A stretch of DNA of 53,217 nt from Bacillota bacterium (GTDB lineage: Bacteria > Bacillota > Clostridia > Peptostreptococcales > Anaerovoracaceae). The translations under genes were made by a program, and so were the position numbers. The notes under the pieces are model-generated. The model was not told where the DNA came from, searched no databases, and saw nothing but the letters and a program-made list of their open reading frames with translations. The stretch spans positions 1 through 53,217 of the forward strand of contig JAFRHG010000036.1 of the NCBI GenBank assembly GCA_017433375.1, read 5' to 3'. This document shows positions 6,312 through 29,675 of this stretch, piece after piece. Numbering within the stretch: the stretch's first letter is position 1; each line of letters opens with the position of its first letter.

Positions 6312-7739
6312 TTAGAGTTCCGGGCCCTTGAACTTGATCTTCTTCTGCTTGATGAACATGCCGTCGCCGGACTGCCCAACATAGTTCTCGCCGTCGAAGA
6401 GCAGCTTGCCGCGGTTGTAGACAGCCACGGGATATCCCTTGAACTTGGACTTCTCCCAAATGGTGTGATCCAGCGCGCCGTGCTGATTCTTCTTGTTGTT
6501 AACGATGAATTCCTTCTTGGGATCGTAGACGACGATGTCCGCATCCAGACCAACCTCGATGGCGCCCTTGCAGTAGTCGATACCGAAGAGCTTCGCCGGG
6601 TTCGTCGCGGAGATCTCGACCGCCTTATTGAAGGAGATCCTGCCCTTGTTGGCCTCGGACAGAATGTAGGGATACATGTTCTCGATTCCTGCGCAGCCGT
6701 TGGGGATGGTGGTGAAGTTGCCCTTCTTGCCATCCTTCGTCTTGATGCCCCAATCCTTTTCCTTCTTCAGGAACGGGCAGTGGTCGGTGGCCAGCGTGGA
6801 AACCGCGCCGGTCTTGATGCCGTTCCACAGCGCATCCTGTGACGGTTTGCCCTTCATCGGAGGCGAGCAGACGAAGTCGCGCGCTCTCAGCTTCAGTGCC
6901 GGAATGCCTTTCTTGTAGACATCCTTGGTGAAGTGCAGATACTGGGGGCAGGTCTCGGCGAAGATGGGATATCCTTCCGCTCTCGCCTGTGCTACTGCCT
7001 CGACGCCCTGCTTGTTGTCCAGGTGGACGATGTACAGCGGAGCACCGGCCATCTTGGCCAGGTTGATCGCTCTCACGTCAGCCTCACCGGCAACGTCTTC
7101 GTTCTTGGAGAGATAGTGATACCACGCATCGGTCTTGCCCTCTGCCAGGAACTTCTTGATCAGCGCGTTGTTCACGTCTCTGTTCTCCGCGTGTACGCCG
7201 ACCAGAGCGCCGATCTTCGCCGCATGCTGCAGCGTCTCGAAGAACTGGCCATCGTCTACGCCGAAGTCATAGACCATGAATACCTTGAATGTGGCAACGC
7301 CCATCTTCATGCACTCGTCCATGGAGGCGAGCATCTTCGGGGTGGTGACATCACCTACGCCGATGTGATAGGAGTAGTCGCACGCGGGGCCGTCCTTCTT
7401 GCAGATCTTGTCTCTTCTCTTCAGCGCCTTGTCCATCGTCTCGCCGACGCCCTGCAGGACGAAGTCGAATACGGTGGTGGTGCCGCCGCAGGCCGCCGCT
7501 CTGGTGCCTGTGAAGTAGTCATCCGTCGCGATGGTTCCGCCGAAAGGCATGGCCAGATGGGTATGTCCATCAATGGCGCCCGGCAGGATCATCTTGCCCT
7601 TGGCATCGATGACCTCAGTGTCCTTGTCCGGCTTCAGACCTGCGCCGATAGCGCTGATCTTACCTTTGGTCACAGCCACGTCAGCCTTGAAGGTGGATTT
7701 TGCTGTAACAACGGTTCCGCCTTTGAATAATAAATCCAT
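6312..7739 (-). CDS. hydA: Dihydropyrimidinase (D-hydantoinase family)
   Basis: A 475-residue cyclic amidohydrolase that opens dihydrouracil or dihydrothymine to the N-carbamoyl-beta-amino acid, step 2 of reductive pyrimidine degradation. The binuclear metal site is complete: GHTH (H59, H61), the carboxylated lysine in TFKVFMVY (K152), H183 in VHAEN, H239 in VHLDN, and D319 in TDHCPF. The ATG at 7739 follows AAAGGAGGAATGTATT; an in-frame extension to 7802 would read through the upstream hairpin. It shares a strand with the NCS1 permease but is separated from it by a terminator-like hairpin (7767-7799). preA, preT and the carbamoyl-amide hydrolase lie about 10-14 kb away on the same strand, which favours dihydropyrimidine over other hydantoins as substrate. 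Confidence 0.93.
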   Translation of the reverse strand: MDLLFKGGTVVTAKSTFKADVAVTKGKISAIGAGLKPDKDTEVIDAKGKMILPGAIDGHTHLAMPFGGTIATDDYFTGTRAAACGGTTTVFDFVLQGVGETMDKALKRRDKICKKDGPACDYSYHIGVGDVTTPKMLASMDECMKMGVATFKVFMVYDFGVDDGQFFETLQHAAKIGALVGVHAENRDVNNALIKKFLAEGKTDAWYHYLSKNEDVAGEADVRAINLAKMAGAPLYIVHLDNKQGVEAVAQARAEGYPIFAETCPQYLHFTKDVYKKGIPALKLRARDFVCSPPMKGKPSQDALWNGIKTGAVSTLATDHCPFLKKEKDWGIKTKDGKKGNFTTIPNGCAGIENMYPYILSEANKGRISFNKAVEISATNPAKLFGIDYCKGAIEVGLDADIVVYDPKKEFIVNNKKNQHGALDHTIWEKSKFKGYPVAVYNRGKLLFDGENYVGQSGDGMFIKQKKIKFKGPEL

Positions 7740-7762
7740 AATACATTCCTCCTTTTCACGGA

Positions 7763-7806
7763 TAGAAAACAGGAGCCCTGAAAACCAAGGCTCCTGTTTC
7801 ATTATA
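7763..7806 (-). promoter_or_regulatory. Hairpin (terminator/attenuator) overlapping a -10 element ahead of hydA
   Basis: AAACAGGAGCC (7767-7777) and GGCTCCTGTTT (7789-7799) form a perfect 11-bp stem. In the permease transcript a U-rich run (TTTTCTAT) follows, so it can terminate. A reverse-strand TATAAT lies at 7806-7801, so a start from that promoter would fall inside the hairpin arm and shorten it. The -35 (TATAAA, 17 bp away) is poor. Confidence 0.55.
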
Positions 7807-7904
7807 TAAAGTTATTGTTTGACTTTATACGGTTGTCTGAGCCTCACATATTTAGCTCTTGTGCCCGAAGGCACTCATTCACTTTCAAAGAGATCAGCCG
7901 GAGC

Positions 7905-9473
7905 TTACGCTCTCTGGGTGAACGCCTCGTGCTCTTCCTCAGTTACGAAGGAGTTGCCAGCCATGCTGGTCTTCATCAGGAAGATGTAGACAACGAAGCC
8001 GACGACGAAGGACCATACGTAGTTGATGGAATTGACGAAGGTGAAGAATCCGCCGGACGCACCGAAGTAGGTCAGCAGCGGCAGGATGAATGCTGCGAAC
8101 CATGCAATGACCGCAGCCCAGTTCCAGCCACCGGAGTACCAGTATCTTCCATCTTTGCCCTGGAACAGAGCCATGATGTCGATTCTCTTCTGCTTGACCA
8201 CGAAGTAGTCGGCGATGAAGATCGCGGCGATCGGAGCCAGGATGGTGCCGTAAGCGTTCATCCAGGTGAAGTACGCTGCGCCGGAACCATAGATCCACCA
8301 TGCCTGCAGAATGAAGAAGGCGAACAGTACGGTGACGATAACGCCGGTTCTGTAGCTGATCTTCTTCGGGTTGATGTTGGAGATTCCATTTGCCGGAGCA
8401 ACAACGTTCGCGGCTACGCAGGTCGTGATCGTTGCGCACACGGTACCAATAGCGGAAATCAGTACGACGATCGGGTTGCTGATGTGATACAGAACGCCGG
8501 TCGGGTCAAACATGGCCTCGCCGAATGCCATCTTAGTGGCCTGTGCATAGTACGCACCGACGAATGCGCAGAACGCCATCGGAAGAGGCATTCCGAGCAG
8601 CTGGCCCATGAACTGGTCTTTCTGGGATCTCGCATACCGGGAGAAGTCCGGAATATTCAGAGCCATCGTAGCCCAGAATGCGATGTTGCCCATCAGGCCG
8701 GAGAGATAGATCAGGGTGAATCCGCCGTTTGCCGCAATCAGCTCGGGGTCATTCTTCTGCTTCATGACATCCCAGAAGCCGGTGCCATCGGGAACGATGG
8801 AAGCGGACCAGATCAGCAGCGCGATCATGATGATGATAAGCAGCGGGCCGCCGACGTCCTGAACGATCTTGATTCTGTCCATGCCGTTGTAAGCAACCCA
8901 CGCGATGAACAGCACGAAGATAATGTAACCGATAAACTGTCCGACCTGTGCCGGCTGCATGCCGCCCCAGGAAGGAAGGCTCATCATCCAGTCAGGATCT
9001 GCGAACTTCTTCGCGAATACGCCGATGATGGCGCCTACCGCGCCGCCGCCGACCCATGCCTGTACAGAACACCATCCGCAGGCGGTCAGTGCCCTGAGCA
9101 GTGCCGGGATCTGTGCGCCGATGGTACCGAAGGTCAGTCTCGCAAAGAGCGGGAACGGGATACCATACTTGGTACCGATCTGAGAGTTCAGCTGGATCGG
9201 GATCAGGATGATCAAGTTGCCCAGCGCTACGTTGATAACCGACAGCCACGGGGATACGCCCATGCCGATCAGTCCGGATGCCAGCGACAGGGACGGAATA
9301 CAGATCGACATTCCGACCCACAGCATGCCGATGTTGTACGTGGTCCATTTACGTTCGGCTACCGTAGTAGGCTTCAGGTCTTCGTTGTAATAAGGCGAAG
9401 ACACAAGCTCTGCTCTGGCTTCTTCCGAAAGTTCAAACAGACCATTCCGTTCGACTTGTGAATACTTAGCCAT
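7905..9473 (-). CDS. NCS1 family nucleobase/allantoin-type permease
   Basis: A 522-residue polytopic membrane protein with about twelve hydrophobic spans. It is recognisable as nucleobase:cation symporter-1 by the N-terminal NEDLKPTTVAERKWTTYNI, by GLIGMGVSPWLSVINVALGN and by FPLFARLTFG. Members import uracil, cytosine, hydantoins or allantoin with H+ or Na+. Location directly upstream of dihydropyrimidinase points to uracil or thymine, or their dihydro forms, as cargo, but the sequence alone does not fix this. The start follows GGAGGTGTTTT. Its promoter is at 9516-9544, and the hairpin at 7767-7799 probably ends most transcripts. Confidence 0.9.
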   Translation of the reverse strand: MAKYSQVERNGLFELSEEARAELVSSPYYNEDLKPTTVAERKWTTYNIGMLWVGMSICIPSLSLASGLIGMGVSPWLSVINVALGNLIILIPIQLNSQIGTKYGIPFPLFARLTFGTIGAQIPALLRALTACGWCSVQAWVGGGAVGAIIGVFAKKFADPDWMMSLPSWGGMQPAQVGQFIGYIIFVLFIAWVAYNGMDRIKIVQDVGGPLLIIIMIALLIWSASIVPDGTGFWDVMKQKNDPELIAANGGFTLIYLSGLMGNIAFWATMALNIPDFSRYARSQKDQFMGQLLGMPLPMAFCAFVGAYYAQATKMAFGEAMFDPTGVLYHISNPIVVLISAIGTVCATITTCVAANVVAPANGISNINPKKISYRTGVIVTVLFAFFILQAWWIYGSGAAYFTWMNAYGTILAPIAAIFIADYFVVKQKRIDIMALFQGKDGRYWYSGGWNWAAVIAWFAAFILPLLTYFGASGGFFTFVNSINYVWSFVVGFVVYIFLMKTSMAGNSFVTEEEHEAFTQRA

Positions 9474-9515
9474 AAAACACCTCCATATTCAGAATAGATA
9501 TATAAGAACATCATA

Positions 9516-9544
9516 AGTATACACCAAAATGAAGATTCTGTGAA
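9516..9544 (-). promoter_or_regulatory. Promoter of the NCS1 permease
   Basis: The reverse strand reads TTCACA (9544-9539), a 17-bp spacer, then TATACT (9521-9516), about 43 bp upstream of the permease ATG. Confidence 0.7.
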
Positions 9545-9645
9545 TTTTTTTTGTTTATTTTTTCACTTTATTTTGGTTTTTTTCCTGCAAAACCGGCTCA
9601 AAATCGGCCCTTTTTCCGCCGGGGAAGGGCGCGGCGAGGACTGCA

Positions 9646-9809
9646 TATACACACCGGGGGGAGAATCTGTTATAATGTTGTCACCCATCTTTACGGCGTT
9701 GCCGCGAGGTGGACAACATTGAAATCCCCTCGGCCGAGCTCGGGGATTATAGTGCCGTCACCCATCTTTACGGCGTTGCCGCCGATTAATCAGGCAAGGA
9801 GGCTTCATC
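9646..9809 (+). promoter_or_regulatory. gltX promoter and structured leader
   Basis: The region 9474-9809 has no gene. A plus-strand promoter TACACA (9648-9653), 17 bp, TATAAT (9671-9676) would start an approximately 125-base leader. The leader contains two copies of a 26-bp direct repeat, each with a CGGC-GTT-GCCG hairpin, separated by a stem AATCCCC/GGGGATT (9723-9749). TGTTGTCACC and GGTGGACAACA also pair around the first repeat. No T-box landmarks are seen. Confidence 0.5.
9680..9782 (+). repeat. Two 26-bp direct repeats in the gltX leader
   Basis: The same 26 bases, beginning GTCACCCATCTTTACGG, occur at 9680-9705 and 9757-9782, 77 bp apart. Both copies are identical and lie between the gltX promoter and its ribosome binding site. 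Confidence 0.9.
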
Positions 9810-11480
9810 ATGGACAATCAGAAACTGGCACAGCTGCTCTTCCCGGCCATCACCGGAACGCCGGAGGATCTGCAAAGGCAATTCCCGCCCCGGGACCTCC
9901 CCGAGGGAGCAAAGGTCACCCGTATGGGACCCAGCCCCACGGGATTCATTCACCTGGGCAACCTTTACGGCGCCTTTGTGGATGAGCGGATGGCCCATCT
10001 TTCCGGCGGGACCTTCTACCTGCGGATCGAAGATACGGATGACAAGCGCTACGTGGAGGGCGCGGTGGAAACCATCACCTCCTCCCTGGCCTTTTTCGGC
10101 ATAGGTTTCGATGAGGGCGCCTGCTCAGACGGCGCTTACGGCCCCTACTTCCAGAGCCAGCGGGCGGAGATCTATCAGACCTTCGTCAAGGATCTGGTCC
10201 GCCGCGGCCTGGCCTACCCCTGCTTCCTGACGGAAGAGGACCTGGCCCGGATCCGGGCCGAGCAGGAAGCCAACAAGGAAACCACCGGCATTTACGGCCG
10301 ATACGCGGAAAAGAGCCGCAGCCTCACCCTGGAGGAAATCGAAGACAACCTGCGCCAGGGCAAGTCCTATGTGATCCGCCTGCGCTCATCGGGCAACACG
10401 GAGCCCGACGGCAGCGTCCGGTACATCCATGTGAAGGATGCCATCCGCGGCGACGTGTCCATGCCCGCCAACGATCAGGACGTGGTCATCCTCAAGGCGA
10501 CGGGCATCCCCACCTATCACTTCGCCCATGTGGTGGACGACTATCTGATGCGGACCACCCACGTGGTCCGGGGCGAGGAGTGGCTCATGTCCCTGCCCAT
10601 CCATATCGAGCTCTTCGAGAAGCTGGGCCTGGAGCCGCCGGTCTACTGCCACACGGCCGTGCTGATGAAGCTGGATGAAGAGACGGGCAACAAGCGCAAG
10701 CTGAGCAAGAGAAAGGATCCGGAGCTCTCCCTAGACTACTACCGCAGCGAGGGCTACCATCCCCAGGCGGTCAAGGAATACCTGATGACCATCCTCAACT
10801 CCGACTTCGAGGAGTGGCGGGCGGCGAATCCGGAGACCCCTCTGGAGGACTTCCCCTTCTCCACGGAAAAAATGAACAGCGCCGGCGCGCTGTTCGATCT
10901 GAATAAACTGAACGATATTTCCAAGGACGTTCTCCTGGGCATCCCCGCCCGGGAACTGGCCGGCTTCCTCACCGACTGGGCCGCCCTGGCCCGGCCGGAG
11001 CTGGTGCCCCTCTTCACCGATGCGGACACCGGATACGGGCCGGACTATCTGACGAAGATCCTGGACCTGGGCCGCAGCGGGAACAAGCCCCGCAAGGACC
11101 TGATCTACGGGCGCCAGATCTTCGACTTCATCGGCTACTTCTTCGACGAGTACTTCCGCGTCGAAGAAACTATTCCGGAAAACGTCTCCGACGAGGACGC
11201 CCGGGAGATCCTGCGCCGGTACCTGGACACCTACGATCACAGCGACGACCAGGGCCAGTGGTTCGACAAGATCCGGGCCATCGCCGTGGACATGGGCTAC
11301 GCCGCCAAGCCGAAGGACTATAAAAAACACCCGGAGGACTACAAGGGGCATGTGGGCCACGTGTCAACCGTTATCCGGCTGGCCGTTATGGGCCGCACCC
11401 AGTCTCCGGATGTCTGGGAAATCCAGCAGATCCTCGGGGAGGATCGGACAAAGGCAAGGCTCAGGGCCCTGCTCGTCTGA
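9810..11480 (+). CDS. gltX: Glutamate--tRNA ligase
   Basis: A class I aminoacyl-tRNA synthetase of 556 residues that charges tRNA with glutamate. The HIGH-type motif is in MGPSPTGFIHLGN (about residues 39-51) and the KMSKS-type motif is KLSKRKDPELSLDY (near 297-310). The catalytic domain also shows YLRIEDTDDKR. It is longer than the usual 460-490 residues because of an N-terminal extension (DNQKLAQLLFPAITGTPED) and a C-terminal anticodon-binding region; this long form occurs in some Clostridia. The start follows AAGGAGGCTTCATC. A glutaminyl-tRNA synthetase is less likely but belongs to the same superfamily. Codons 22-24 (CAA AGG CAA) are part of the repeated 10-mer GCAAAGGCAA. Confidence 0.92.
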   Translation: MDNQKLAQLLFPAITGTPEDLQRQFPPRDLPEGAKVTRMGPSPTGFIHLGNLYGAFVDERMAHLSGGTFYLRIEDTDDKRYVEGAVETITSSLAFFGIGFDEGACSDGAYGPYFQSQRAEIYQTFVKDLVRRGLAYPCFLTEEDLARIRAEQEANKETTGIYGRYAEKSRSLTLEEIEDNLRQGKSYVIRLRSSGNTEPDGSVRYIHVKDAIRGDVSMPANDQDVVILKATGIPTYHFAHVVDDYLMRTTHVVRGEEWLMSLPIHIELFEKLGLEPPVYCHTAVLMKLDEETGNKRKLSKRKDPELSLDYYRSEGYHPQAVKEYLMTILNSDFEEWRAANPETPLEDFPFSTEKMNSAGALFDLNKLNDISKDVLLGIPARELAGFLTDWAALARPELVPLFTDADTGYGPDYLTKILDLGRSGNKPRKDLIYGRQIFDFIGYFFDEYFRVEETIPENVSDEDAREILRRYLDTYDHSDDQGQWFDKIRAIAVDMGYAAKPKDYKKHPEDYKGHVGHVSTVIRLAVMGRTQSPDVWEIQQILGEDRTKARLRALLV

Positions 11481-11494
11481 TCTGAGATCGATCC

Positions 11495-12217
11495 TTATTT
11501 CATCTGATCAGCCGCTTCTTCGGAGGCGGCTTTTTTTCCGGCCTCTTCTCCGTCGGCCTCTTCTCCGCCGGCTTCCTCTTCATCCTGCCAGTCGGAGTCG
11601 CCGTCTTCCTCTTCATCCTCCCTGTCTTCGAAGACGATGGTCGGACGGTGGCCCATATCCCTGGCCCGCTCCTCCGCGTGGCTGCGTTTGCGCACCATGT
11701 GGCTCACCATGATCTCTTCCACGATGCCGGATACGCCGGCAGCCAGCATGCCGAAGCCGATGATCATGAACAGCATCTCTCCGCTCTCCAGGGGGAACAG
11801 CATGATAAACAGGCCGAAGGCCATGATGATCAGCCCCACGATCAGGGTCGGGCGCATGTTATAGCCCCGCCGCCGGATGTGAAGGGATGTCTGCAGCACG
11901 AAGAGGCCCCGGATCAGAACCATGACGCCGAAGAGGAAGGGAACCAGCGTGATGATCAGGTCCTGCTTGACCACGATGAAGATGGCCAGAAAGATCATCA
12001 GCACCCCGATGGCGAATCCGTTGCCGCGCCTCTCTCCGTTCTCCGCGGCAGGCATGATGATATAACCGAAGACGTACAGCAGCCCAAGCACCGCCACGGC
12101 GATGGCCAGGATGTAGCACAGCACGCTCTCCACACCATCGGGACGGACGATAAAGAGCAGTCCCACCGCGATGTAGATCAGCGCAACCAATATAAAGGTC
12201 CACTTTTGCTTTTGCAT
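11495..12217 (-). CDS. DUF308-like polytopic membrane protein
   Basis: A 240-residue protein with about six hydrophobic spans (for example FILVALIYIAVGLLFIV, VLCYILAIAVAVLGLLYVFGYI, GFAIGVLMIFLAIFIVV, LVPFLFGVMVLIRGLFVL) arranged as the two-span repeats typical of DUF308/HdeD-like proteins. A highly acidic cytoplasmic tail follows (EDREDEEEDGDSDWQDEEE). I chose the ATG at 12217 because GGAGGAGTGTGAAT spaces well to it; an in-frame GTG sits two codons earlier. It follows the ABC genes with a 55-bp gap that contains a GC-rich hairpin and no U-tract. The function is unknown. Confidence 0.75.
   Translation of the reverse strand: MQKQKWTFILVALIYIAVGLLFIVRPDGVESVLCYILAIAVAVLGLLYVFGYIIMPAAENGERRGNGFAIGVLMIFLAIFIVVKQDLIITLVPFLFGVMVLIRGLFVLQTSLHIRRRGYNMRPTLIVGLIIMAFGLFIMLFPLESGEMLFMIIGFGMLAAGVSGIVEEIMVSHMVRKRSHAEERARDMGHRPTIVFEDREDEEEDGDSDWQDEEEAGGEEADGEEAGKKAASEEAADQMK
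11510..11537 (+). terminator. gltX terminator inside the converging gene
   Basis: AGCCGC (11510-11515) and GCGGCT (11526-11531) form a stem followed by TTTTTTT. The hairpin lies within the last codons of the converging DUF308-like gene, so one DNA segment serves as coding tail and terminator. Confidence 0.7.
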
Positions 12218-12272
12218 ATTCACACTCCTCCTTCCGGAACCGGGCCCCGCGGGTCCGCGGCGCCGGCAGCGA

Positions 12273-14732
12273 TCAGTTCACGTCGGTCCGGGCCAGGATC
12301 TCCGCCGGTGTCTTGCGGATGGTCCGCCAGACCGGCATCAGGCCGAAGACGATGTTCAGTCCAAAGATAACGATCAGGCAGATCAGCAGCACGCCGGAAT
12401 TGATCAGGAACATATCCCTGAGATAGGAGACATGTATCAGGCGGCTGATGATAAAGGCCATGAACAGGAATCCGGGCAGACTGGCCAGTATGGAGATGGC
12501 CAGAATCTCTCCGGAGAACATTTTGTAGATGTCGCGCTTCTTCACGCCGATAGCCCGGTAGACGCCCACTTCCTTGATTCTGGACAGGAAGGACGCGCGG
12601 ATCATCAGGAAGATCTCGATGAAGGATATGCCCAGGATGACGCCGGCGAGCACCAGGATCGACAGCATGGAGCTGCGCTTTTCCTGCAGGTACTTGTTCT
12701 TGTTCTGGGTGTACACATCCCTGACGTTGACCCCGTTCTCCTTCAGCGTGCGCAGGGTGGCCGACTTGTCCTTCGGGCAGAGGGTCATGTTCTTCTTGTC
12801 CTTGATCAGCTTGTACTTGATCATGGTCTCATTGACCAGCAGGTAGTCGCTGTCCTTGGGGTCGGAATAGTATCCGGTGATGGTCAGCTTTTTGTCGTTG
12901 ATTTTGGTGCTGACCTGGCGTCCGATCTTGTAGGCCGGGTCGTCCTTGTTCTTGTCGTTGACCAGGACCTGATATTTGTCCTTGGGCCATTCCCCCTTCT
13001 TCAGGGTGACCTCGGACTTCATCAGCTCGTAGTCGATCAGGGAACCGCCCACCGCCGAACTGTCGTCGGTGACCGCCTCCATCACTTCGATGTCGGCATC
13101 GTCCACGCCCTCGCCCACGGCATTGGCGATCAGATTGATGAACACCGCCGGGTCCGTATAGATGCAGGGGGTCTCCTTGTTGGTGATGCCCACGATGGTG
13201 AACTCACCCATGTGGGGGATCTTCGCCCGCTGACCCAGGAAACTCTTCGTGGTGCCCAGCCCCAGCTCCTTGGTGTACTGGTCCTCGATGGTGCTCTTGA
13301 CCACCATCCGGTCCACCACGATTTCGTGGTCGTTCTGCGGCAGCCTGCCCGCGATGATATCCTGGCGGGTCACCCGGTCCTTGCTGGACAGGGAGCCGTT
13401 CAGGGACACCATGGCATCCTTGGTCTGGTAGTACTGGTCCATGGCCAGGGGCAGACTGATCTTCGAGTCTCCGGGCATGACGTACTCCAGGGTGCCGTCG
13501 CTCTGGTAATCCACGTAGGTGTCCACGCTGATGTTCTTGCCCACCAGGGTCAGGTAATCCTTATCCTCCGTGGTGAACTGGGAATCGGTGATGTGCAGCG
13601 TGCCGAAGGTCATACAGATGGCGTAGGTGATGAAGCCCGCGGAAATGCAGAAGCCCAGCAGCAGGACCTTCTTCAGGGTCGGGTAGTTGGATACGGTCTT
13701 GAAGCCCCGCTTCATCAGCGTGACCGGATTGAGGATGGAGGTGTACTTCCTCTTGGACAGGGTATCCAGCACCTTCGTGCTGAAGCTGTCCTCCTCCTCT
13801 CCGTGGGCCATCTTCCTGTAGTGGTCATCGATCAGCTCCACCGCCGAATGATCATCCACCACCTCGATGGAATCCATATCGTTCTTTGCCTGTATATAAA
13901 TGTTGCCGCCTCTGACGACGATGTTCAGATCGACCCGTCCGCCTTCACTGTAGAAGTCGACGTTGTACTTGTCGGTCTTCACTCTCTTGTGGTCCTGGAT
14001 GTCCTTCAGGTAGATCTTGTTGTCGATCCGGTAATCCAGGCCTTCGTTATGGGTATTGATCTCATCGGATTCGATCTTGCCGTCCTTGATCCGGATGATC
14101 CGGTCGGCATAGAACTCCGCCAGCTTCTCCTCGTGGGTGACCAGGATGACCAGCTTTTCCCGGGAGATGGCCTTGATGATGTTCATGACCTCCAGGGTGT
14201 TCTTGCTGTCCAGGTTTCCCGTAGGCTCGTCGGCGATGACGATGGTGGGGTTCTTCACCAGGGCCCGGGCGATGCCGACCCGCTGGCGCTCGCCGCCGGA
14301 CAGCATGTCCGCGTACCGGTTGCGGTAACGGTACATGCCCACCTTCTCCAGAACGTAGTTGACCTTCTCCTTGATCTCCGCCTTGTTCTTGATGCCGATC
14401 ATCCGCAGGGCGATGGCCACGTTGTCGAAAACCGTCATGTTCTCCACAAGGTTGTAGTTCTGGAAAATGTATCCGATGCTCAGGGTCCGGATCCGGTCAA
14501 CCGTGCCGGACATCCTGCGGGAGATCCGCTGCCCGTTGACGTAGATGGCTCCCTTGTTGACCTTATCCAGCCCGCCGATGGCGTTCAGCAGGGTGGTCTT
14601 GCCGCAGCCCGAGGGGCCCAGCAGAGCGACCAGTCCCCGGTCTTCCGTCTCCAGGGAGGTGTCGTTGATGGCGTGGATCTCGTTCCTTCTCCGCCGGAAA
14701 AAGTATTTGTGCACATGATCCAGTCTTACCAT
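12273..14732 (-). CDS. ABC transporter, ATPase fused to FtsX-like permease (second gene)
   Basis: An 819-residue protein. An N-terminal ATPase domain (about 1-220) has Walker A GPSGCGKTT (39-47), Q-loop Q91, signature LSGGE (144-148), Walker B IVIADEP and switch H200. A charged linker follows, then one membrane span (KKVLLLGFCISAGFITYAICM), a large extracytoplasmic domain and three C-terminal spans (LVLAGVILGISFIEIFLMI, ISILASLPGFLFMAFII, LLICLIVIFGLNIVFGLM) of the FtsX/MacB permease type. These systems export peptides or lipids, or transmit mechanical force, and many act in antimicrobial resistance or lipoprotein handling. The start follows GAGAGGAGGTGTGATC, inside the last codons of the preceding ABC gene, so the two are translationally coupled. 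It is probably a heterodimer partner of that gene. Confidence 0.9.
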   Translation of the reverse strand: MVRLDHVHKYFFRRRRNEIHAINDTSLETEDRGLVALLGPSGCGKTTLLNAIGGLDKVNKGAIYVNGQRISRRMSGTVDRIRTLSIGYIFQNYNLVENMTVFDNVAIALRMIGIKNKAEIKEKVNYVLEKVGMYRYRNRYADMLSGGERQRVGIARALVKNPTIVIADEPTGNLDSKNTLEVMNIIKAISREKLVILVTHEEKLAEFYADRIIRIKDGKIESDEINTHNEGLDYRIDNKIYLKDIQDHKRVKTDKYNVDFYSEGGRVDLNIVVRGGNIYIQAKNDMDSIEVVDDHSAVELIDDHYRKMAHGEEEDSFSTKVLDTLSKRKYTSILNPVTLMKRGFKTVSNYPTLKKVLLLGFCISAGFITYAICMTFGTLHITDSQFTTEDKDYLTLVGKNISVDTYVDYQSDGTLEYVMPGDSKISLPLAMDQYYQTKDAMVSLNGSLSSKDRVTRQDIIAGRLPQNDHEIVVDRMVVKSTIEDQYTKELGLGTTKSFLGQRAKIPHMGEFTIVGITNKETPCIYTDPAVFINLIANAVGEGVDDADIEVMEAVTDDSSAVGGSLIDYELMKSEVTLKKGEWPKDKYQVLVNDKNKDDPAYKIGRQVSTKINDKKLTITGYYSDPKDSDYLLVNETMIKYKLIKDKKNMTLCPKDKSATLRTLKENGVNVRDVYTQNKNKYLQEKRSSMLSILVLAGVILGISFIEIFLMIRASFLSRIKEVGVYRAIGVKKRDIYKMFSGEILAISILASLPGFLFMAFIISRLIHVSYLRDMFLINSGVLLICLIVIFGLNIVFGLMPVWRTIRKTPAEILARTDVN

Positions 14733-14734
14733 GA

Positions 14735-16966: not shown

Positions 16967-17026
16967 GCTGTTTTCTTTTGGATGGTCCTCCCTGAATGGT
17001 TTCTGCCTTCCCGCGGTGTCTGTCCT

Positions 17027-17728
17027 CTACAGGGACGCCAGGATTTCATCCAGATCCGCCGGAGTCATGGGATTGATCGAATCCCCGCCTTCCGTCAGTC
17101 TGGTGTATTCGTTGTTGTAGTCGCTGGCGGAAACCGTCGCTCCGTTGATGGAGAAATTGACCAGTTCCTCTCTCGCCGGCGTATCGTTCTCTCCGTTGGT
17201 GGAGGCCTTCAGGCTCTCCGTGGAAGCCGCGCCGTCAACAATGGTTACCGCGGAAACGTTCTCATCCACCCACTCATCGCTGGAGTTGAACAGGACCACC
17301 GTGGTCGGGCTGATGCTCTCGTTGATGATGACCTCGTAGGCGGTATCCGTCTGTCCGTACTGGATGCCGCATTTGCCGCTGAACACGCTCTCCGCCTTGT
17401 CACCCTTGACCACGTAAATCTCCGTCGTCATGTCGTGGATGACGATCAGTTCCTTGTTGCCGTCGCCGTCCAGGTCCATGGCTCTGGCATAGGTTACGCC
17501 CTTGCCGTTGGCCTCTCCCCTGCCGTACTGGTCGATCAGGCCCTGCAGCGTTTTCTTCAGCACGCTGTCCGGCTTCGGCGCTTCCGTAGTGGTCGCCTCC
17601 GTGGTGGTCGCCTCCGTCGTCGGTTCCGTCGGTTCCGGATCGTCGGATCCGCAGGCGGTCACCGCCATGACCATGCCCAGCGCGAGCACGATTACCGCGC
17701 CAATGTACAGTACCCCGTTTTTTTTCAT
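17027..17728 (-). CDS. Lipoprotein with Thr-rich linker
   Basis: A 233-residue secreted lipoprotein. The signal peptide (MKKNGVLYIGAVIVLALGM) ends in the lipobox VTAC, with lipidated C26. A Thr/Glu/Pro-rich linker (TEPTTEATTTEATTTEAP) tethers a globular domain containing DLDGDGNKEL, a calcium-binding loop of the type seen in VCBS/FG-GAP-like secreted domains. The ATG at 17728 follows GGGAGGATAAAAGAG; an upstream in-frame extension lacks a ribosome binding site. It is the first gene of a unit with the two ABC proteins and may be their extracytoplasmic partner. I do not recognise a named family. Confidence 0.75.
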   Translation of the reverse strand: MKKNGVLYIGAVIVLALGMVMAVTACGSDDPEPTEPTTEATTTEATTTEAPKPDSVLKKTLQGLIDQYGRGEANGKGVTYARAMDLDGDGNKELIVIHDMTTEIYVVKGDKAESVFSGKCGIQYGQTDTAYEVIINESISPTTVVLFNSSDEWVDENVSAVTIVDGAASTESLKASTNGENDTPAREELVNFSINGATVSASDYNNEYTRLTEGGDSINPMTPADLDEILASL

Positions 17729-17961: not shown

Positions 17962-17989
17962 CTGATTATCGCTTTCCCTGGGGAGATTC

Positions 17990-19342: not shown

Positions 19343-19343
19343 T

Positions 19344-20615: not shown

Positions 20616-20670
20616 TTTCATTCCTCCTTTTTTATCGTCCGCGATAACTCTCATTCATTATCGTAATCTG

Positions 20671-20707
20671 AGAGAAAAACCGGCGGAGCGGGTAACCGCC
20701 CCGTCGG
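20671..20707 (-). terminator. Terminator/attenuator between the hydrolase gene and preT
   Basis: In the reverse-strand transcript CCGACGGGGCGG and CCGCTCCGCCGG (20707-20680) form a 12-bp stem with one mismatch and one G-U pair around a TTAC loop, followed by TTTTTCTCTC. It would uncouple preT-preA from the upstream hydrolase gene unless read through. Confidence 0.65.
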
Positions 20708-20732
20708 TCTGTAGGCACTTGCTCAGATCGGA

Positions 20733-22034
20733 TTAAAACTCATCGGACGCGTCGCACTTCAGCACCGCGTTCAGCGTCGCCGTAGCAGCCGCCGTGCAGT
20801 CCTCGTCGGAGACGTGCTCCGGCTCGCAGTGGGACAGGCCGTCCTTGGTCCGTGAGAAGATCATGGTCGTCGGGATCATGTACGCGCAGAACTGTGCGTC
20901 GTGGCCGGCTCCGGACAGGATTCTCTGCCACTTGGCGCCCATCTCATCCATGGATTCCTCAACAAACTTGATCAGTCTGGCATCGAACGGTACCGGATCT
21001 CTCTTCCACTGTTCCTCGATGTCGCAGGTGCACTGCTGATACATCTCGCCAGCCATCTCCTTCAGGATCTCCATGCACTTGTCAAGGACGAACTGATCAG
21101 GATGTCTTACATCCAGGGAGAATTCCGCTTCGTCCGGAATGCAGGTGTGGATGCAGGGGTGGACATAGATCTCGCCGGTGGTGAATACGAATTCGTACTC
21201 GCTCTGGCCGCTCTCCAGCAGCTCCTTGTTGTAAGCGTCATATCTCTCATGCAGCTTGCAGAGGAAGTCCGCCGCAGCATGCAGAGCGTCGTGTCTCTTC
21301 GCCATCGGGAATGTGCCCGCGTGAGCCGTGAATCCGTGGAATCTGACTCTGTAGTTGAACATACCCATAACCTTCTGTACAGCGCCGATCTCGTTGCCGT
21401 TGTCCTCGAGGATCGGGCCCTGCTCCAGGTGGGTCTCAAACATGGCGCAGTACTTGTCCGGGCTGATTCTGTTGGCCTTGTCGCCTTTGTACTTGGAAGC
21501 CGCCAGAGCCTCGCCGAAGTTCGCGAACTCGGACTTGTCCATGGGCTTGGAAGCCATCATGTTCTCATACTTGAAGTTCGGCTTCAGGTAATCGGGCAGA
21601 TAGTCATAGCAGATGATGCCGGAGACCATCATTGCCGGCGGATACAGGGAACCTTCTTCGTTGGTCCAGATCATCGCCGTCAGAGGATGCTTGTGGGGGA
21701 TGTTCTCCGCCGCAACCGTCTCCAGTACTTCCATACCGGTCATTACGCCTTCAATACCGTCGTAGTTTCCGCCGTTCTTTACGGAGTCACAGTGGGAACC
21801 CATAACGATTCTCTTCGCGTTGGGATCGGAACCTTCCAGGGTAGCATACAGGCATGCGCAGTCGTCGCACTCGATCTTGGCGCCGATGGCCTCCATTCTT
21901 CTGACGAACTCATCTCTCGCCATATGCGCTTCCTTGGACAGAGAATATCTCGTGATTCCGCCATGTCCGGCATCTCCGAACTTCGCGAAGGTTCTGATCT
22001 TGTCAGACATTCTCTCTAAACTGCATTTGTACAT
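20733..22034 (-). CDS. Zn-dependent N-carbamoyl-beta-alanine amidohydrolase (M20 family)
   Basis: A 433-residue member of the hydantoinase/carbamoylase branch of M20 metallohydrolases. The metal-binding residues are in MGSHCDSVKNGGNYDG (His, Asp), WTNEEGS (Glu-Glu), FETHLEQGP (His) and SGAGHDAQF (His). The branch includes beta-ureidopropionase, N-carbamoyl-L-amino acid hydrolase and allantoate amidohydrolase. Location next to preT-preA, and dihydropyrimidinase elsewhere in the window, favour N-carbamoyl-beta-alanine as substrate, yielding beta-alanine, CO2 and ammonia. The ATG at 22034 follows AAAGGAGGACATTGTT; an upstream in-frame ATG at 22067 does not. It is transcribed from the promoter at 22108-22135. 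Confidence 0.9.
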   Translation of the reverse strand: MYKCSLERMSDKIRTFAKFGDAGHGGITRYSLSKEAHMARDEFVRRMEAIGAKIECDDCACLYATLEGSDPNAKRIVMGSHCDSVKNGGNYDGIEGVMTGMEVLETVAAENIPHKHPLTAMIWTNEEGSLYPPAMMVSGIICYDYLPDYLKPNFKYENMMASKPMDKSEFANFGEALAASKYKGDKANRISPDKYCAMFETHLEQGPILEDNGNEIGAVQKVMGMFNYRVRFHGFTAHAGTFPMAKRHDALHAAADFLCKLHERYDAYNKELLESGQSEYEFVFTTGEIYVHPCIHTCIPDEAEFSLDVRHPDQFVLDKCMEILKEMAGEMYQQCTCDIEEQWKRDPVPFDARLIKFVEESMDEMGAKWQRILSGAGHDAQFCAYMIPTTMIFSRTKDGLSHCEPEHVSDEDCTAAATATLNAVLKCDASDEF

Positions 22035-22107
22035 AACAATGTCCTCCTTTATCATTTGATTCATCAAATTCGTAATGGCTGTGAAACCAGTTACATACTA
22101 CAACAAC

Positions 22108-25057: not shown

Positions 25058-26455
25058 ATGACCATCGAGAATCGAGCTGCCCAGCACATCCGTGTCGGCG
25101 AGATCCTGCCGATCCTGGAGAGCATCAGTGACGCTGTCTTCATCGACAGCAGCGAAGGAACCTGCCTCTGGTGCAACAGCACCTGCGAGGAACTTTATGA
25201 TATCTCCAGCGAGGATATCGCGGGGCGGACCGTAGAGGAGCTGGAACAGGAGGGGATCTTTTCCCCTTCCGTCACCCGGCGCGTTCTCGACGAGAAACGG
25301 GAGCTGACCATCATCCATGAAAACAAGAAAGGCGTCCGCCTGCTGACCACCGGCACGCCGATCTTCGGGGATGACGGCCAGCTTCTTATGGTTATCACCA
25401 CCTCCCGGGACATCACCCGGATCACCCAGCGCCAGGGCGAGCACGCCCAGGCCGACCCGGACGACGTGGACAACATGGACGATTTCGCCGGCGCGGACTT
25501 CGTCCACCACGGCATCGTGGCCCGCAGCAAGCCCATGCGCAACGTCATGGCCCTGACCCGGCGACTGGCCTCCGTCAACTCCACCGTGCTGATCACCGGC
25601 GAATCCGGCGTGGGCAAGGGCCTGATCGCCCGCACCCTCCACGAGGAGGGTCCCCGCTGGAAAGCTCCCCTGGTCACGGTCAACTGTGGCGCCATCCCCG
25701 AAAACCTCATCGAATCCGAGCTCTTCGGCTACGTGGCCGGCGCCTTCACCGGCTCCCGGTCCGGCGGCAAGCGGGGCTACTTCGAGGCGGCCCAGGGCGG
25801 CACCATCTTTCTTGACGAGATCTCCGAACTGCCCCTGAACCTGCAGGTCAAACTCCTCCAGGTCATCCAGGAGCGGCAGATCACGCCGGTGGGCGCCGTG
25901 AAGGCGATCCCCATCGATGTGCGGATCATTTCCGCCACCAACCGGGACCTGGCGACCCTGGTGCAGAGCGGGAAGTTCCGGGAAGACCTCTACTACCGGC
26001 TCAACGTCGTTCCCATCGAGGTCCCCCCTCTCCGCGAACGGCCCGAGGACATCGTCCCCCTGATCCGGATGAACCTGGAAAAGTGCAACCGGGACCTCCA
26101 CGAACACAAGTCCATCAGCGCCGAGGCCATCTCCACCCTGCTCCAGTATCCCTGGCCGGGCAACATCCGGGAGCTGCAGAACATCGTGGAGCGCCTGGTC
26201 ATCACCACATCGGGCTCCGTCATCACCGACGAGGACATCTTCATCTTCATTAAGGAGGCCGCCGGCAAGAACACCCGCGCCGTCTCCGACTCCTCCCTGA
26301 CCGCCGCCCTCCAGCGGGCGGAAAAGGAGATCCTGGAGGAGGCCCTTTCCCGTTACGGCTCTACGCGGGCCATGGCCAGGGTCCTGCAGGTCAGCCAGCC
26401 CACCGTGGTGCGCAAACTGCAGAAATACGGGCTGAACCGCCCCTCTTCCGACTGA
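25058..26455 (+). CDS. PAS-domain sigma-54-dependent transcriptional activator
   Basis: A 465-residue bacterial enhancer-binding protein. An N-terminal PAS domain (about 12-120, ILESISDAVFIDSSEGTCLW) would sense a small molecule or redox signal. The AAA+ domain has Walker A GESGVGKG, a sigma-54 contact loop that reads GAFTGS instead of GAFTGA, Walker B GGTIFLDEIS, arginine-finger region FREDLYYRLNVVPIEVPPLRER and WPGNIRELQN. The C-terminal HTH (STRAMARVLQVSQPTVVRKLQKYGL) is of the TyrR type. The ribosome binding site is weak (GGGAAATCC). Three 16-bp palindromic sites start at its own stop codon, and a -24/-12 promoter lies 290 bp downstream, so its target is very likely the aldehyde dehydrogenase-aminotransferase operon. 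Confidence 0.93.
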   Translation: MTIENRAAQHIRVGEILPILESISDAVFIDSSEGTCLWCNSTCEELYDISSEDIAGRTVEELEQEGIFSPSVTRRVLDEKRELTIIHENKKGVRLLTTGTPIFGDDGQLLMVITTSRDITRITQRQGEHAQADPDDVDNMDDFAGADFVHHGIVARSKPMRNVMALTRRLASVNSTVLITGESGVGKGLIARTLHEEGPRWKAPLVTVNCGAIPENLIESELFGYVAGAFTGSRSGGKRGYFEAAQGGTIFLDEISELPLNLQVKLLQVIQERQITPVGAVKAIPIDVRIISATNRDLATLVQSGKFREDLYYRLNVVPIEVPPLRERPEDIVPLIRMNLEKCNRDLHEHKSISAEAISTLLQYPWPGNIRELQNIVERLVITTSGSVITDEDIFIFIKEAAGKNTRAVSDSSLTAALQRAEKEILEEALSRYGSTRAMARVLQVSQPTVVRKLQKYGLNRPSSD

Positions 26456-26742: not shown

Positions 26743-26759
26743 TTGGCACGGTTGATGCT
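26743..26759 (+). promoter_or_regulatory. Sigma-54 (-24/-12) promoter
   Basis: TTGGCACGGTTGATGCT matches TTGGCACG-N4-TTGCT with one mismatch. The invariant GG and GC are exactly 10 bases apart. It lies about 98 bp ahead of the aldehyde dehydrogenase start codon. Confidence 0.85.
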
Positions 26760-26856: not shown

Positions 26857-28311
26857 ATGGCATCTACACCTGAAGAAAGAGCTGCTCGCAGAGAAGAAGC
26901 AGCAAAGTACATCGCTGGACTGGTCGAAAAGGCAAAGGCTGCCCAGGCTGTCGCGGAGAACTTCACGCAGGAAGACGTTGATCTGATCACTGCTGCGGTT
27001 ACCTACAACCTGACCAAGCCCGAGAAGGCCAAGATGTTCGCGGAAATGCTGGTCGAAGAGTCCGGCATGGGTATTGCTGAGGACAAGGTCGGCAAGATCT
27101 ACGGCAAGGTCTGGGGTTCCTACATCAAGATGAAGGACAAGAAGTCGGTCGGACAGGTTGACGACGCTCCCTCCGGCGGCCCCGGAATCACCGCGTATGC
27201 GAAGCCCATGGGCGTTATCGCCGGCATCATGCCTGTAACCAACGGCGAAGCTACCCCCATCGTAAAATCCAACATGGCACTGAAGACGAGAAACGCCATC
27301 ATCCTGGCTCCCCACCCGAAGTGCAAGAAGCTGAACGTCGTCATCGTTGACGAGATCAGAGCCACCCTGAAGAAGCTGGGTTATCCCGAAGATCTGGTAC
27401 AGACCTGCGATGCTGAGCACGTCAACCTGGAAACCTCCCAGGAGCTGATGAAGCAGGCTGACTTCATCCTGGCCACCGGCGGCGAAGCGCTGGTCGAGAC
27501 GGCATACTCCTCCGGAACTCCGGCTATCGGCGTTGGCGTCGGCAACTGCTGCTCCATCGTAACGGGCAAGACCCCGATGGATAAGGTTGCGGATATGATC
27601 GTCACCTCCAAGAAGTATGACAACGCGACTTCCTGCTCCACCGAGAACAACATCATCGTTTACGAAGACTGCTTCGATGAGTTCGTCAAGGAAATGGAAG
27701 CTCACGGCGCTTACATGTGCACCGCGGAAGAAGGCGACAAGCTGAAGAAGTGCATGTGGCCGAACACCCCCAACGATCACGTTCTGAACAGAGCTATCGT
27801 TGCCCAGAATGCGGAGAAGATCGCGCAGCTGGCTGACATCAAGGTTCCCGCCGGCACCACCGTGCTGATGGCGATGGAAGAAGGCGCTGGCCTGGATCAC
27901 CCCTTCGCGGGCGAGAAGCTGTCCCCGGTCTCCGGCGTACAGAAGGTCAAGAATCTGGAAGAAGCCATCGCGCTCATCCAGGACATCCTGAACTATCAGG
28001 GCAAGGGCCACAGTGCCGGTATCCACACCAACGATCCTGCTGACGTCAAGGCCATCGCAGAGGTTCTGCCGGTCACCAAGATCGCGGTCAACCAGCCTCA
28101 GTGCCTGACCAACTCCGGCGGCTGGAACACCGGATTCCCGGTATCCATGACTCTGGGCTGCGGAACCTGGGGCGGCAACAGCGTATCCCACAACGCAACC
28201 TACAAGGATCTGCTGAACTACACCTACGTTTCCGAGGCGATTCCGAACTGGAAGCCGGAGAAGGTCGAAGACTTCATCGACGCTGCCGTCATCGCCAAGG
28301 TCGACGCGTAA
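26857..28311 (+). CDS. CoA-acylating aldehyde dehydrogenase (SauS-like)
   Basis: A 484-residue aldehyde dehydrogenase of the acylating AdhE/EutE/SauS kind. The catalytic cysteine is in NATSCSTEN, the coenzyme region in GVGVGNC, and the C-terminal block GFPVSMTLGCGTWGGNS resembles sulfoacetaldehyde dehydrogenase (acylating) as I recall it. The enzyme would oxidise an aldehyde to its acyl-CoA with NAD(P)+. Being the first gene of a sigma-54-controlled operon with an omega-aminotransferase, the aldehyde is probably the transamination product. Malonate semialdehyde from beta-alanine fits the pyrimidine genes in this window; sulfoacetaldehyde from taurine is the alternative. The ATG at 26857 follows AAGGAGGTCTTAAAC, and the upstream in-frame extension would begin at the sigma-54 promoter. 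Confidence 0.88.
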   Translation: MASTPEERAARREEAAKYIAGLVEKAKAAQAVAENFTQEDVDLITAAVTYNLTKPEKAKMFAEMLVEESGMGIAEDKVGKIYGKVWGSYIKMKDKKSVGQVDDAPSGGPGITAYAKPMGVIAGIMPVTNGEATPIVKSNMALKTRNAIILAPHPKCKKLNVVIVDEIRATLKKLGYPEDLVQTCDAEHVNLETSQELMKQADFILATGGEALVETAYSSGTPAIGVGVGNCCSIVTGKTPMDKVADMIVTSKKYDNATSCSTENNIIVYEDCFDEFVKEMEAHGAYMCTAEEGDKLKKCMWPNTPNDHVLNRAIVAQNAEKIAQLADIKVPAGTTVLMAMEEGAGLDHPFAGEKLSPVSGVQKVKNLEEAIALIQDILNYQGKGHSAGIHTNDPADVKAIAEVLPVTKIAVNQPQCLTNSGGWNTGFPVSMTLGCGTWGGNSVSHNATYKDLLNYTYVSEAIPNWKPEKVEDFIDAAVIAKVDA

Positions 28312-28349
28312 TCGGTATTTCATAGCGAGATAATCAAAGGAGATTCAAT

Positions 28350-29675
28350 ATGTCAGTTATTCAGGAAAAAGACAAGAAATATAACATCCACTCCTGGTCC
28401 GCGCAGGGCGCTCTGAACCCGATCGTGGTCACCAAGGCAGAAGGAATCTACTTCTGGGATGAGGATGGCAAGAAGTATGCCGACATGTCCGCTCAGCTGG
28501 TCAACTCCAACCTGGGCCACGGCAACAAGGCCATCATCGACGCCATCTGCGAGCAGGCGAACAAGATTCCCTTCATGGGACCCGCCTTCGCGATGGATTG
28601 CAGATCCGACGCCGCGGAAGCGGTTGTCAAGATCTCCGGATTCCCCGAGGGATCCAAGGTCTTCTTCACCAACGCCGGTGCGGAAGCTAACGAAAACGCC
28701 ATCAAGATCGCTCGCCAGTATACCGGCAAGCAGAAGATCTTCTCCCAGTACAGATGCTATCACGGCTCCTCCGCCGGTGCTGGCATGCTGACCGGTGAGC
28801 CGAGACACTTCTTCAACGAGCCGGGCGGCCCGGGATACGTCAAGTATGACGGCCCCTACGAGTACAGAGCTCCCAAGGCCTGCAAGTTCGAGAGCGAAGA
28901 CGATGTCGCTGATTTCTATCTGGAACTGCTGGAAAACCAGATCCTGTACGAGGGTCCGGAGCAGATCGCGGCGATCTGGCTCGAGTCCGTCGTCGGATCC
29001 AACGGCGTTCTGGTCGCTCCGGTCAAGTGGTACCAGGGCGTAAGAGCTCTCTGCGACAAGTACGACATTCTGATGGTCGCTGACGAAGTCATGGCCGGAT
29101 GGTTCAGAACGGGCAAGGCGTTCGCTTACATGAACTTCGGTTATCAGCCGGATATGATCACCTTCGCGAAGGGCGTCACCTGCGGATACATTCCCCTCGG
29201 CGGCGTTGTGGTCACTCCGGCCATCGCCAAGTTCTTCGACGACACCACCCTGGGCTGCGGCCTGACCTACTCCGCTCATCCCATGGGCTGCGCGGCTGCG
29301 GTTGCCACCATCAAGGAGTACCTGGACAGGAACATCGAAGAGACCATGAAGGCTCCGGCCAAGGTTCTGGCGGACACTCTGGACAGCTTTGTTGACAAGC
29401 ACGCCTGCGTCGGTCAGGTCAGACACATCGGCCTGTTCTCCGCTGTCGAGCTGGTCAAAGACAAGAAGACCAGAGAACCCATCGTTCCCTTCGGCAAGGA
29501 TCCGGAAGGCATCATGAAGAAGATCATCGGCATGCTGGTAGCAGACGGCTTCTGGACATACTCTCACGAGAACATGTTCGTGATCTGCCCGCCGCTGACG
29601 ATCACCGCGGAAGAAATGAAGGAACAGCTCGCCATCGTCGACAAGGTTCTGGATTCCGTAGACAAGATGATCTAA
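28350..29675 (+). CDS. Class III omega-aminotransferase (beta-alanine or taurine:pyruvate type)
   Basis: A 441-residue PLP-dependent fold-I aminotransferase of class III. The Schiff-base lysine is in DMITFAKGVTCGY (K274), the cofactor aspartate in LMVADEVMAGWFRTG (D245) and the phosphate region in FFTNAGAEANENAIK. The family includes beta-alanine:pyruvate, taurine:pyruvate and 4-aminobutyrate aminotransferases, and sequence alone does not pick one. It follows the acylating dehydrogenase by 38 bp with its own AAAGGAGATTCAAT. Together they would convert an omega-amino acid to an acyl-CoA. Given the upstream supply of beta-alanine from pyrimidines, I infer beta-alanine as the most likely substrate. 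Confidence 0.88.
   Translation: MSVIQEKDKKYNIHSWSAQGALNPIVVTKAEGIYFWDEDGKKYADMSAQLVNSNLGHGNKAIIDAICEQANKIPFMGPAFAMDCRSDAAEAVVKISGFPEGSKVFFTNAGAEANENAIKIARQYTGKQKIFSQYRCYHGSSAGAGMLTGEPRHFFNEPGGPGYVKYDGPYEYRAPKACKFESEDDVADFYLELLENQILYEGPEQIAAIWLESVVGSNGVLVAPVKWYQGVRALCDKYDILMVADEVMAGWFRTGKAFAYMNFGYQPDMITFAKGVTCGYIPLGGVVVTPAIAKFFDDTTLGCGLTYSAHPMGCAAAVATIKEYLDRNIEETMKAPAKVLADTLDSFVDKHACVGQVRHIGLFSAVELVKDKKTREPIVPFGKDPEGIMKKIIGMLVADGFWTYSHENMFVICPPLTITAEEMKEQLAIVDKVLDSVDKMI

Follow-up and report, generated by a model that had tools for sequence, protein, structure and literature searches.

In the described routes of reductive pyrimidine breakdown, PydE is a malonic semialdehyde reductase whose product is 3-hydroxypropionate, and in a study of Bacillus megaterium uracil is reportedly converted to acetyl-CoA by way of a beta-alanine aminotransferase and a malonate-semialdehyde dehydrogenase (MSDH) of the decarboxylating MmsA family. 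To our knowledge, the known extensions of the pathway either stop at 3-hydroxypropionate or lose the energy of decarboxylation. In this study we analysed a stretch of 53,217 nucleotides (hereafter the window) from a Bacillota bacterium of the family Anaerovoracaceae (GCA_017433375.1, contig JAFRHG010000036.1), which carries genes of the reductive pathway together with a CoA-acylating aldehyde dehydrogenase (ALDH) and a class III aminotransferase. Pyd clusters in which PydD, PydE and MSDH are named, and the use of NADH by Escherichia coli PreAT, are described in PMC7332683. The gene content and genomic context of the window and its relatives suggest, with a probability that we put at roughly 0.7, that reductive degradation of pyrimidines has here a new terminal branch via malonyl-CoA. 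Among the titles and abstract openings listed, which cover little of the subscription literature, we recognised none that describes the breakdown of uracil or beta-alanine through malonyl-CoA.

In the predicted route, uracil would enter through an NCS1-type permease and be reduced to dihydrouracil by PreT-PreA, after which a dihydropyrimidinase and an M20 hydrolase, judging from their families, would release beta-alanine, CO2 and ammonia. The aminotransferase would convert beta-alanine to malonate semialdehyde, from which the SauS-like ALDH would form malonyl-CoA with CoA and NAD(P)+. A biotin-dependent, Na+-translocating complex of the Mmd type, encoded elsewhere in the genome, may then decarboxylate malonyl-CoA to acetyl-CoA, and acetate kinase, whose gene is present, could convert the thioester to ATP. 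A PAS-containing sigma-54 activator would turn on the ALDH-aminotransferase pair, which in relatives may serve further sources of beta-alanine. Genomic context makes beta-alanine the likely amine donor of the aminotransferase. Malonyl-CoA as the ALDH product, followed by decarboxylation at a Na+ pump, is plausible, and the carboxyltransferase and Na+-pump genes would support both this product and a gain of ATP; direct release of acetyl-CoA is the main rival.

Genes of the window

In a genome of 1.95 Mb and 38 contigs, estimated to be 89% complete, the window makes up contig C28 (below, G and L numbers denote genomes and loci of the comparison set). All seven genes named in the initial annotation (permease, dihydropyrimidinase, PreT, PreA, M20 hydrolase, aminotransferase and ALDH) were recovered in place with intact frames, whereas the sigma-54 activator adjoining the ALDH-aminotransferase pair is absent from that annotation. 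The features are as follows:

6312-7739, minus strand: dihydropyrimidinase of the D-hydantoinase family (TIGR02033, 458.5 bits; cut-off 393.25)
7905-9473, minus strand: NCS1-type nucleobase permease (PF02133, 272 bits, E 1.2e-80)
17990-19342, minus strand: PreA, FMN/iron-sulfur subunit of dihydropyrimidine dehydrogenase (NF006183, 549.6 bits; cut-off 335)
19344-20654, minus strand: PreT, FAD/NAD(P)H subunit, adjoining PreA (Fer4_20 and Pyr_redox_2 domains)
20733-22067, minus strand: M20 N-carbamoyl-amide hydrolase, presumed beta-ureidopropionase (TIGR01879, 299 bits; cut-off 204)
25058-26455, plus strand: PAS-AAA+-HTH sigma-54-dependent activator (PrdR is the closest named model, at 405.6 bits against a cut-off of 795)
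26744-26759, plus strand: sigma-54 (-24/-12) promoter-like site TGGCACGGTTGATGCT (agrees with the consensus at 11 of 12 positions; roughly 100 bp ahead of ALDH)
26857-28311, plus strand: CoA-acylating ALDH, proposed malonate-semialdehyde dehydrogenase, malonyl-CoA forming (Aldedh; AdhE/EutE/SauS type)
28350-29675, plus strand: class III aminotransferase, proposed beta-alanine aminotransferase (Aminotran_3; TFAKG lysine motif)

The genes form four blocks (6312-9473 and 17990-22067 on the minus strand, 25058-26455 and 26857-29675 on the plus strand) separated by gltX, an HdeD-like gene, two ABC proteins, TelA and others, most of them named by reading, which bears out the earlier description of the route as scattered. 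The dihydropyrimidinase carries the motifs GHTH, FKVF, HAEN, VHLDN and TDHCP, which we take to be its metal ligands, and PreA has two CxxCxxCxxxC motifs. The permease is under the NCS1 subfamily cut-off (TIGR00800, 280.6 versus 353.1 bits). Among the best 25 NCBIfam matches listed for PreT, none is above its own cut-off, and its identity comes from its domains and its adjacency to PreA. The M20 protein belongs to the hydantoinase/carbamoylase family and is a putative beta-ureidopropionase; its open reading frame begins with TTG and an internal ATG is a possible start, so that the start codon is uncertain. The order M20-PreT-PreA is conserved in seven same-genus loci (L131-L136 and L141) and in L137, with M20 identities of 79-97%. 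Two marks of the Pyd pathway, PreT with PreA and a dihydropyrimidinase, are present, and by gene content the window would encode a complete reductive pyrimidine pathway, with enzyme activities assigned from protein families.

The ALDH and aminotransferase genes lie 39 apart by coordinates. The best solved match of the ALDH is 8cei, a CoA-acylating succinate-semialdehyde dehydrogenase with which its catalytic cysteine aligns, followed by AdhE-type enzymes. Its best NCBIfam model is SauS (NF047625), at 459.3 bits below the equivalog cut-off of 600, and a score of 22.1 bits on TIGR01722 (cut-off 448.5) places it outside the MmsA/IolA family. The aminotransferase matches 6jix, a taurine:2-oxoglutarate aminotransferase, with 447.9 bits (runner-up 229.8).

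The -24/-12 site is the only match in the window at one mismatch or fewer, where 3.4 are expected by chance, and hence is not significant alone. Across ALDH rows that include close relatives, a site of at least 10 of 12 positions precedes the gene in 35 of the 41 with an adjacent activator versus 3 of the 25 without, and the activator neighbours ALDH in most relatives read. An ornithine racemase gene, Orr (30555-31640, minus strand; NF040742, 503.2 bits over 480), lies close to the ALDH-aminotransferase pair; ornithine or amino acids related to it may be fermentation substrates of the host.

Neighbourhoods and co-occurrence in relatives

The initial annotation had stated that its proposal would fail if homologous operons occurred consistently with sulfonate genes and not with preTA. 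Gene neighbourhoods gave the opposite picture: ALDH is clustered with PreT-PreA, dihydropyrimidinase and a permease in eight other genomes, seven of which also have the aminotransferase there, and a partial reading noticed no sulfonate gene among those neighbours of the sigma-54/ALDH/aminotransferase triad that are common to at least two loci. In G109 (L063) the genes run on a single strand in the order activator-ALDH-aminotransferase-M20-NCS1-dihydropyrimidinase-PreT-PreA, and the same genes without the activator are clustered in G544 (L126; M20, PreA, PreT, dihydropyrimidinase, NCS1, ALDH, aminotransferase) and G536 (L127; ALDH, aminotransferase, NCS1, PreT, PreA, dihydropyrimidinase, M20). 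Three further clusters (G503, G569 and G576; L122, L124 and L125) combine ALDH, activator, NCS1, PreT, PreA, dihydropyrimidinase, a carboxyltransferase and aminotransferase with a YgeY-like M20 protein that replaces the carbamoylase; G554 (L123) has this gene set minus the aminotransferase on an 11.6-kb contig. The 23-kb cluster of G155, all on one strand, runs TRAP transporter-ALDH-aminotransferase-MmdA-biotin carrier-MmdB-PanB-M20-PanE-OPT transporter-S58 (DmpA-type) peptidase-IclR-NCS1-dihydropyrimidinase-PreT-PreA, and thereby places three possible sources of beta-alanine (uracil, peptides and pantothenate) beside the ALDH-aminotransferase pair. Its MmdB is over the cut-off (506.1 versus 190.6 bits), and its MmdA (958.5; cut-off 998.8) and biotin carrier (143.9; cut-off 200) are both under. 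A biotin-type acyl-CoA carboxyltransferase is present in five of these eight uracil (pyd) clusters, in G155 together with a Na+-pump subunit, and ALDH adjoins a carboxyltransferase gene in L164 too.

A second, near-identical ALDH-aminotransferase copy in G155 (L064 11690-19829) is preceded by a separate activator, is followed by a sodium:solute symporter-like gene and adjoins carbamate-kinase-like and OTC-like genes (by reading). Four genomes (G417, G697, G424 and G422) have a second PreT-PreA that adjoins FTHFS, FchA-like and FolD-like genes, a formate channel, an IclR-like gene, PanB, PanE and an M20 peptidase (L129, G417:C1:982000-1001900, 7879-19408; L173, L174, L175; L118 7060-13626; models were run on most G417 copies only). 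These clusters look like anaerobic pantothenate breakdown, in which retro-PanB would feed one-carbon (C1) units to formate and ATP with release of beta-alanine.

Scanning genome contigs with the window ALDH gave at least 20 loci; the matches listed comprise 17 from uncultured Bacillota/Clostridia and three from betaproteobacteria, and several close relatives among them are of animal-gut origin (goat, roe deer, horse), and the host is accordingly taken to be an uncultured clostridium of the gut. Trees were built on hand-chosen rows (40 of 66 for ALDH, two of them trimmed, and 28 of 45 for the aminotransferase). In the midpoint-rooted ALDH tree, four PydCT-linked sequences are sister to the clade containing the window, inside which G544 and G536 are nested; in the aminotransferase tree, pyd-linked sequences are interspersed, G569 and G576 adjoining the window's genus.

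Across 349 genomes of the family in 92 genera, ALDH and PreA occur together in 71, ALDH only in 27, PreA only in nine and neither in 242 (by genus 27, 6, 2 and 57, respectively); Fisher values for this co-occurrence ignore shared ancestry. ALDH was counted in 98 of the 123 genomes with a match at 1e-80 and dropped in 25, the rule being a best E value of at most 1e-140, identity of about 48% or more, or a contig-edge fragment of at least 85% identity (three such). PreA was counted in 80 of the 112 genomes with a match at 1e-100, at 65% identity or more, and 32 matches of 46-58% were dropped; with these kept, the table becomes 72, 26, 40 and 211.

Several observations weigh against the malonyl-CoA route as a terminal branch of uracil breakdown. 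A close PreA is missing from 27 of the 98 ALDH-positive genomes, including G418, G420 and G421 (91-97% complete), so the ALDH-aminotransferase module is not tied to uracil alone; nine genomes have PreA without ALDH, among them G416 (98% complete), G597 and G573 (both 96%). The triad recurs over genus and family, often near infC/rplT and lexA-like genes within the genus (by reading), and in the same-genus loci read it stands apart from preTA except in the window and in separate PydCT clusters. A sigma-54 site precedes ALDH in only four of the eight pyd clusters (G109, G503, G569 and G576), none being found before it in G554, G544, G536 and the uracil-linked G155 copy. Sigma-54 control of the NCS1-dihydropyrimidinase and M20-PreT-PreA blocks of the window was considered and rejected, as neither has a site at 10 of 12 positions or better. 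Three of the eight clusters (G109, G544 and G536) are without a carboxyltransferase. The host MmdA is below its subfamily cut-off (TIGR01117, 852.8 versus 998.8 bits), and MmdA-type genes are widespread in the family whether ALDH is present or not, so that they are consistent with the route and not specific to it. The nearest named enzymes of the aminotransferase and the ALDH use taurine and sulfoacetaldehyde, and the similarity of these two proteins, taken alone, favours sulfonates. In G111 (L148 3668-10684), an ALDH of 44% identity that is sister to the uracil-linked ALDHs of G109 and G155 lies beside a TAXI-TRAP transporter and an acetolactate-synthase-like thiamine diphosphate (ThDP) enzyme, a context that could mean something else. 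The earlier interpretation of the window as a uracil-to-acyl-CoA route is supported by the eight uracil clusters; the module is, however, wider than uracil.

Alternative products and substrates

The strongest competitor concerns the product: the ALDH may decarboxylate while oxidising malonate semialdehyde and release acetyl-CoA directly in the manner of MmsA/IolA, the carboxyltransferases serving other reactions. Known malonate-semialdehyde dehydrogenases do act in this decarboxylating way, and the three clusters without a carboxyltransferase fit it, but the ALDH is not of the MMSDH family by its TIGR01722 score, and carboxyltransferase genes stand in the five other clusters and beside ALDH in L164. 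We consider direct release unlikely, yet worth keeping in view.

A second alternative is that the aminotransferase forms sulfoacetaldehyde from taurine and the ALDH converts it to sulfoacetyl-CoA, with the proximity to preTA in the window due to chance. It can draw on 6jix as the best solved match of the aminotransferase, on SauS as the best model of the ALDH and on the neighbours of the G111 gene. However, the window ALDH falls well short of the SauS cut-off, while the betaproteobacterial ALDH of L085 reaches 748 bits. An acyl-CoA ligase adjoins ALDH in two of the three betaproteobacterial loci (L085 and, by reading, L086), and these enzymes fit SauS; their rows branch outside the clostridial rows (support 96/89), at a join for which a long-branch warning was given. 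On the Xsc model (cut-off 676) the G111 ThDP enzyme reaches 345 bits, less than on acetolactate synthase models. Xsc over its cut-off was found in none of the 49 genomes of the host genus, but in none of 14 control genomes either, and isethionate lyase and sulfite reductase were not searched for.

Inositol clusters bear on the same point. ALDHs of 43-45% identity lie in three of them (G082, G110 and G179), with IolD over the cut-off of 715 in L146 (996.2) and L150 (987.6), IolG in L147 just over its own (356.1 versus 355) and an IolB-like protein in L146 under it (113 versus 205). The end product of inositol breakdown is malonate semialdehyde, which this ALDH group would thus have in common with two unrelated routes. 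The ALDH of L146 (8948-10339) passes the SauS model (602.6; cut-off 600) amid iol genes, and the SauS label therefore does not tell the substrate. With eight pyd clusters holding ALDH, the taurine reading was set aside on context, cut-off and tree, and we regard it as quite improbable.

Elsewhere, no telling neighbours were seen for the ALDHs of G055 and of a second place in G179. FAD-linked oxidase genes adjoin ALDH in G617 and G647, as supported by Pfam for G647 alone, and the G617 gene has MmdA and an OadG-like gene as further neighbours. A second ALDH (59%) in L130 (G417:C1:527000-546900, 9394-18769) stands beside an AdhE-like protein, a biotin carrier and a biotin carboxylase, near EtfBA-like proteins (by reading) and an MmdA-like carboxyltransferase.

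Reversal of the pair, with malonyl-CoA reduced and malonate semialdehyde aminated to supply beta-alanine for pantothenate, would account for PanB and PanE in the G155 operon and in the four PreT-PreA clusters described above. But the linked genes, which include a permease, hydrolases, the S58 peptidase, a decarboxylase, C1 genes and a formate channel, suggest degradation; beta-alanine would already be supplied by PreT-PreA; and the host genus showed neither an AccD- nor an AccC-type source of malonyl-CoA, which together leave this direction very improbable. Another amine and acid, such as gamma-aminobutyrate (GABA) converted to succinyl-CoA via succinate semialdehyde independently of the uracil genes, is scarcely credible in spite of 8cei and of the ALDH-positive genomes without close PreA, given that the loci read showed no genes of 4-hydroxybutyrate or GABA metabolism next to the triad (no dedicated search was made) and that malonate semialdehyde is common to the pyd and inositol contexts.

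Proposed energy conservation and comparison with known systems

Under the malonyl-CoA route, the later steps would depend on the following genes of the host:

Contig C20, 11295-13734: MmdA-, MmdD- and MmdC-like genes together
Contig C30, 4323-5489: MmdB (TIGR01109, 469.3 bits, above the beta subunit cut-off of 190.6)
Contig C38, 20294-21460: acetate kinase
Window, 42975-47200, minus strand: NADH-dependent [FeFe] hydrogenase HydA with NuoF-like and NuoE-like partners (HydA, NF040763, 865.5 bits; cut-off 765)

The best solved match of the host MmdA is a PccB; the delta (OadG-type) subunit is over its cut-off (TIGR01195, 51.3 versus 36.05) and the gamma subunit under that of the MmdC model (115.5 versus 200). 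A search for methylmalonyl-CoA mutase that was positive in 8 of 14 control genomes found it in none of the 49 from the genus, so the decarboxylase would need another source of substrate. A second ALDH of the host genome, 38% identical to that of the window, lies about 2 kb after the mmdA-mmdD-mmdC-like genes (L144 11295-17351).

The label "redox-balanced" given to uracil in the initial annotation is not exact. PreT-PreA would use one NADH, the ALDH would yield one and re-oxidation of glutamate would yield another, leaving a net surplus of one NADH per uracil if glutamate is re-oxidised; "self-sufficient with a small surplus" is the better wording. The surplus could leave via the [FeFe] hydrogenase, of whose partners the NuoF-like protein is over its cut-off (NF010120, 403.7 versus 389) and the NuoE-like protein under. 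The overall balance would be uracil + 4 H2O -> acetate + 2 CO2 + 2 NH3 + H2.

An acetyl-CoA carboxylase was seen in none of the 49 genomes of the host genus, nor was a gene of the AccD or AccC type. Carboxyltransferase matches number exactly one in 36 of them, two in nine and none in four, the best being MmdA-type, and biotin carboxylase matches lie mostly in frames of pyruvate carboxylase size (42 of 49). The fab operon of G591 (L171 5165-11050), with no adjoining acc genes, encodes FabK and FabD over their cut-offs, two ketoacyl synthases, and an acyl carrier protein, FabG and FabZ named by reading. We tentatively suggest a malonyl-CoA hub without acetyl-CoA carboxylase, in which malonate semialdehyde would be the meeting point of uracil, pantothenate and beta-alanyl peptides, joined in other families by inositol, the SauS-like ALDH would make malonyl-CoA without ATP and the biotin Na+ pump would gain energy from its decarboxylation; malonyl-CoA could also feed fatty acid synthesis in the host genus, where a fab operon with FabD and FabF was seen. 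Against the fatty acid part, G597 and G573 match a ketoacyl synthase strongly but have no counted ALDH, and in G561 and G585, where ALDH is present, the ketoacyl-synthase match is only weak. The idea of the ALDH as an obligatory source of malonyl-CoA for fatty acid synthesis is weakened by G597 and G573.

If the malonyl-CoA route is correct, these anaerobes would conserve energy from uracil, each molecule of which would yield one thioester and possibly drive one turnover of the Na+ pump, and names given by automatic annotation, for example sulfoacetaldehyde dehydrogenase and taurine aminotransferase, would have to be corrected in a clostridial group. In the gut, preTA inactivates 5-fluorouracil; the route would tie preTA to a full catabolic pathway in gut Clostridia.

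Among known systems, SauS is in the same branch of the ALDH superfamily as the window ALDH and acts on an isosteric acid semialdehyde, but the window protein is below the equivalog cut-off, stands apart in the tree and has no SauT-like partner, no ligase being seen beside it by reading. The taurine:2-oxoglutarate aminotransferase 6jix is by far the closest solved relative of the aminotransferase and differs in that relatives of the window enzyme are linked to uracil genes. Alpha-, beta-, gamma- and delta-like subunits of a Na+-translocating Mmd are all encoded in the host, whereas the mutase was found in none of the 49 genus genomes and the proposed substrate is malonyl-CoA. Like the proposed route of the window, the uracil route of Bacillus megaterium ends in a CoA thioester, but its MSDH is reportedly a decarboxylating enzyme of the MmsA family, and the window ALDH belongs to the AdhE/SauS type and reaches 22 bits against the MMSDH model. 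Compared with the Pyd pathway with PydD-PydE, a CoA-acylating dehydrogenase occupies the place of PydE here (no search was aimed at PydE), and the carbon would therefore leave as a thioester instead of 3-hydroxypropionate.

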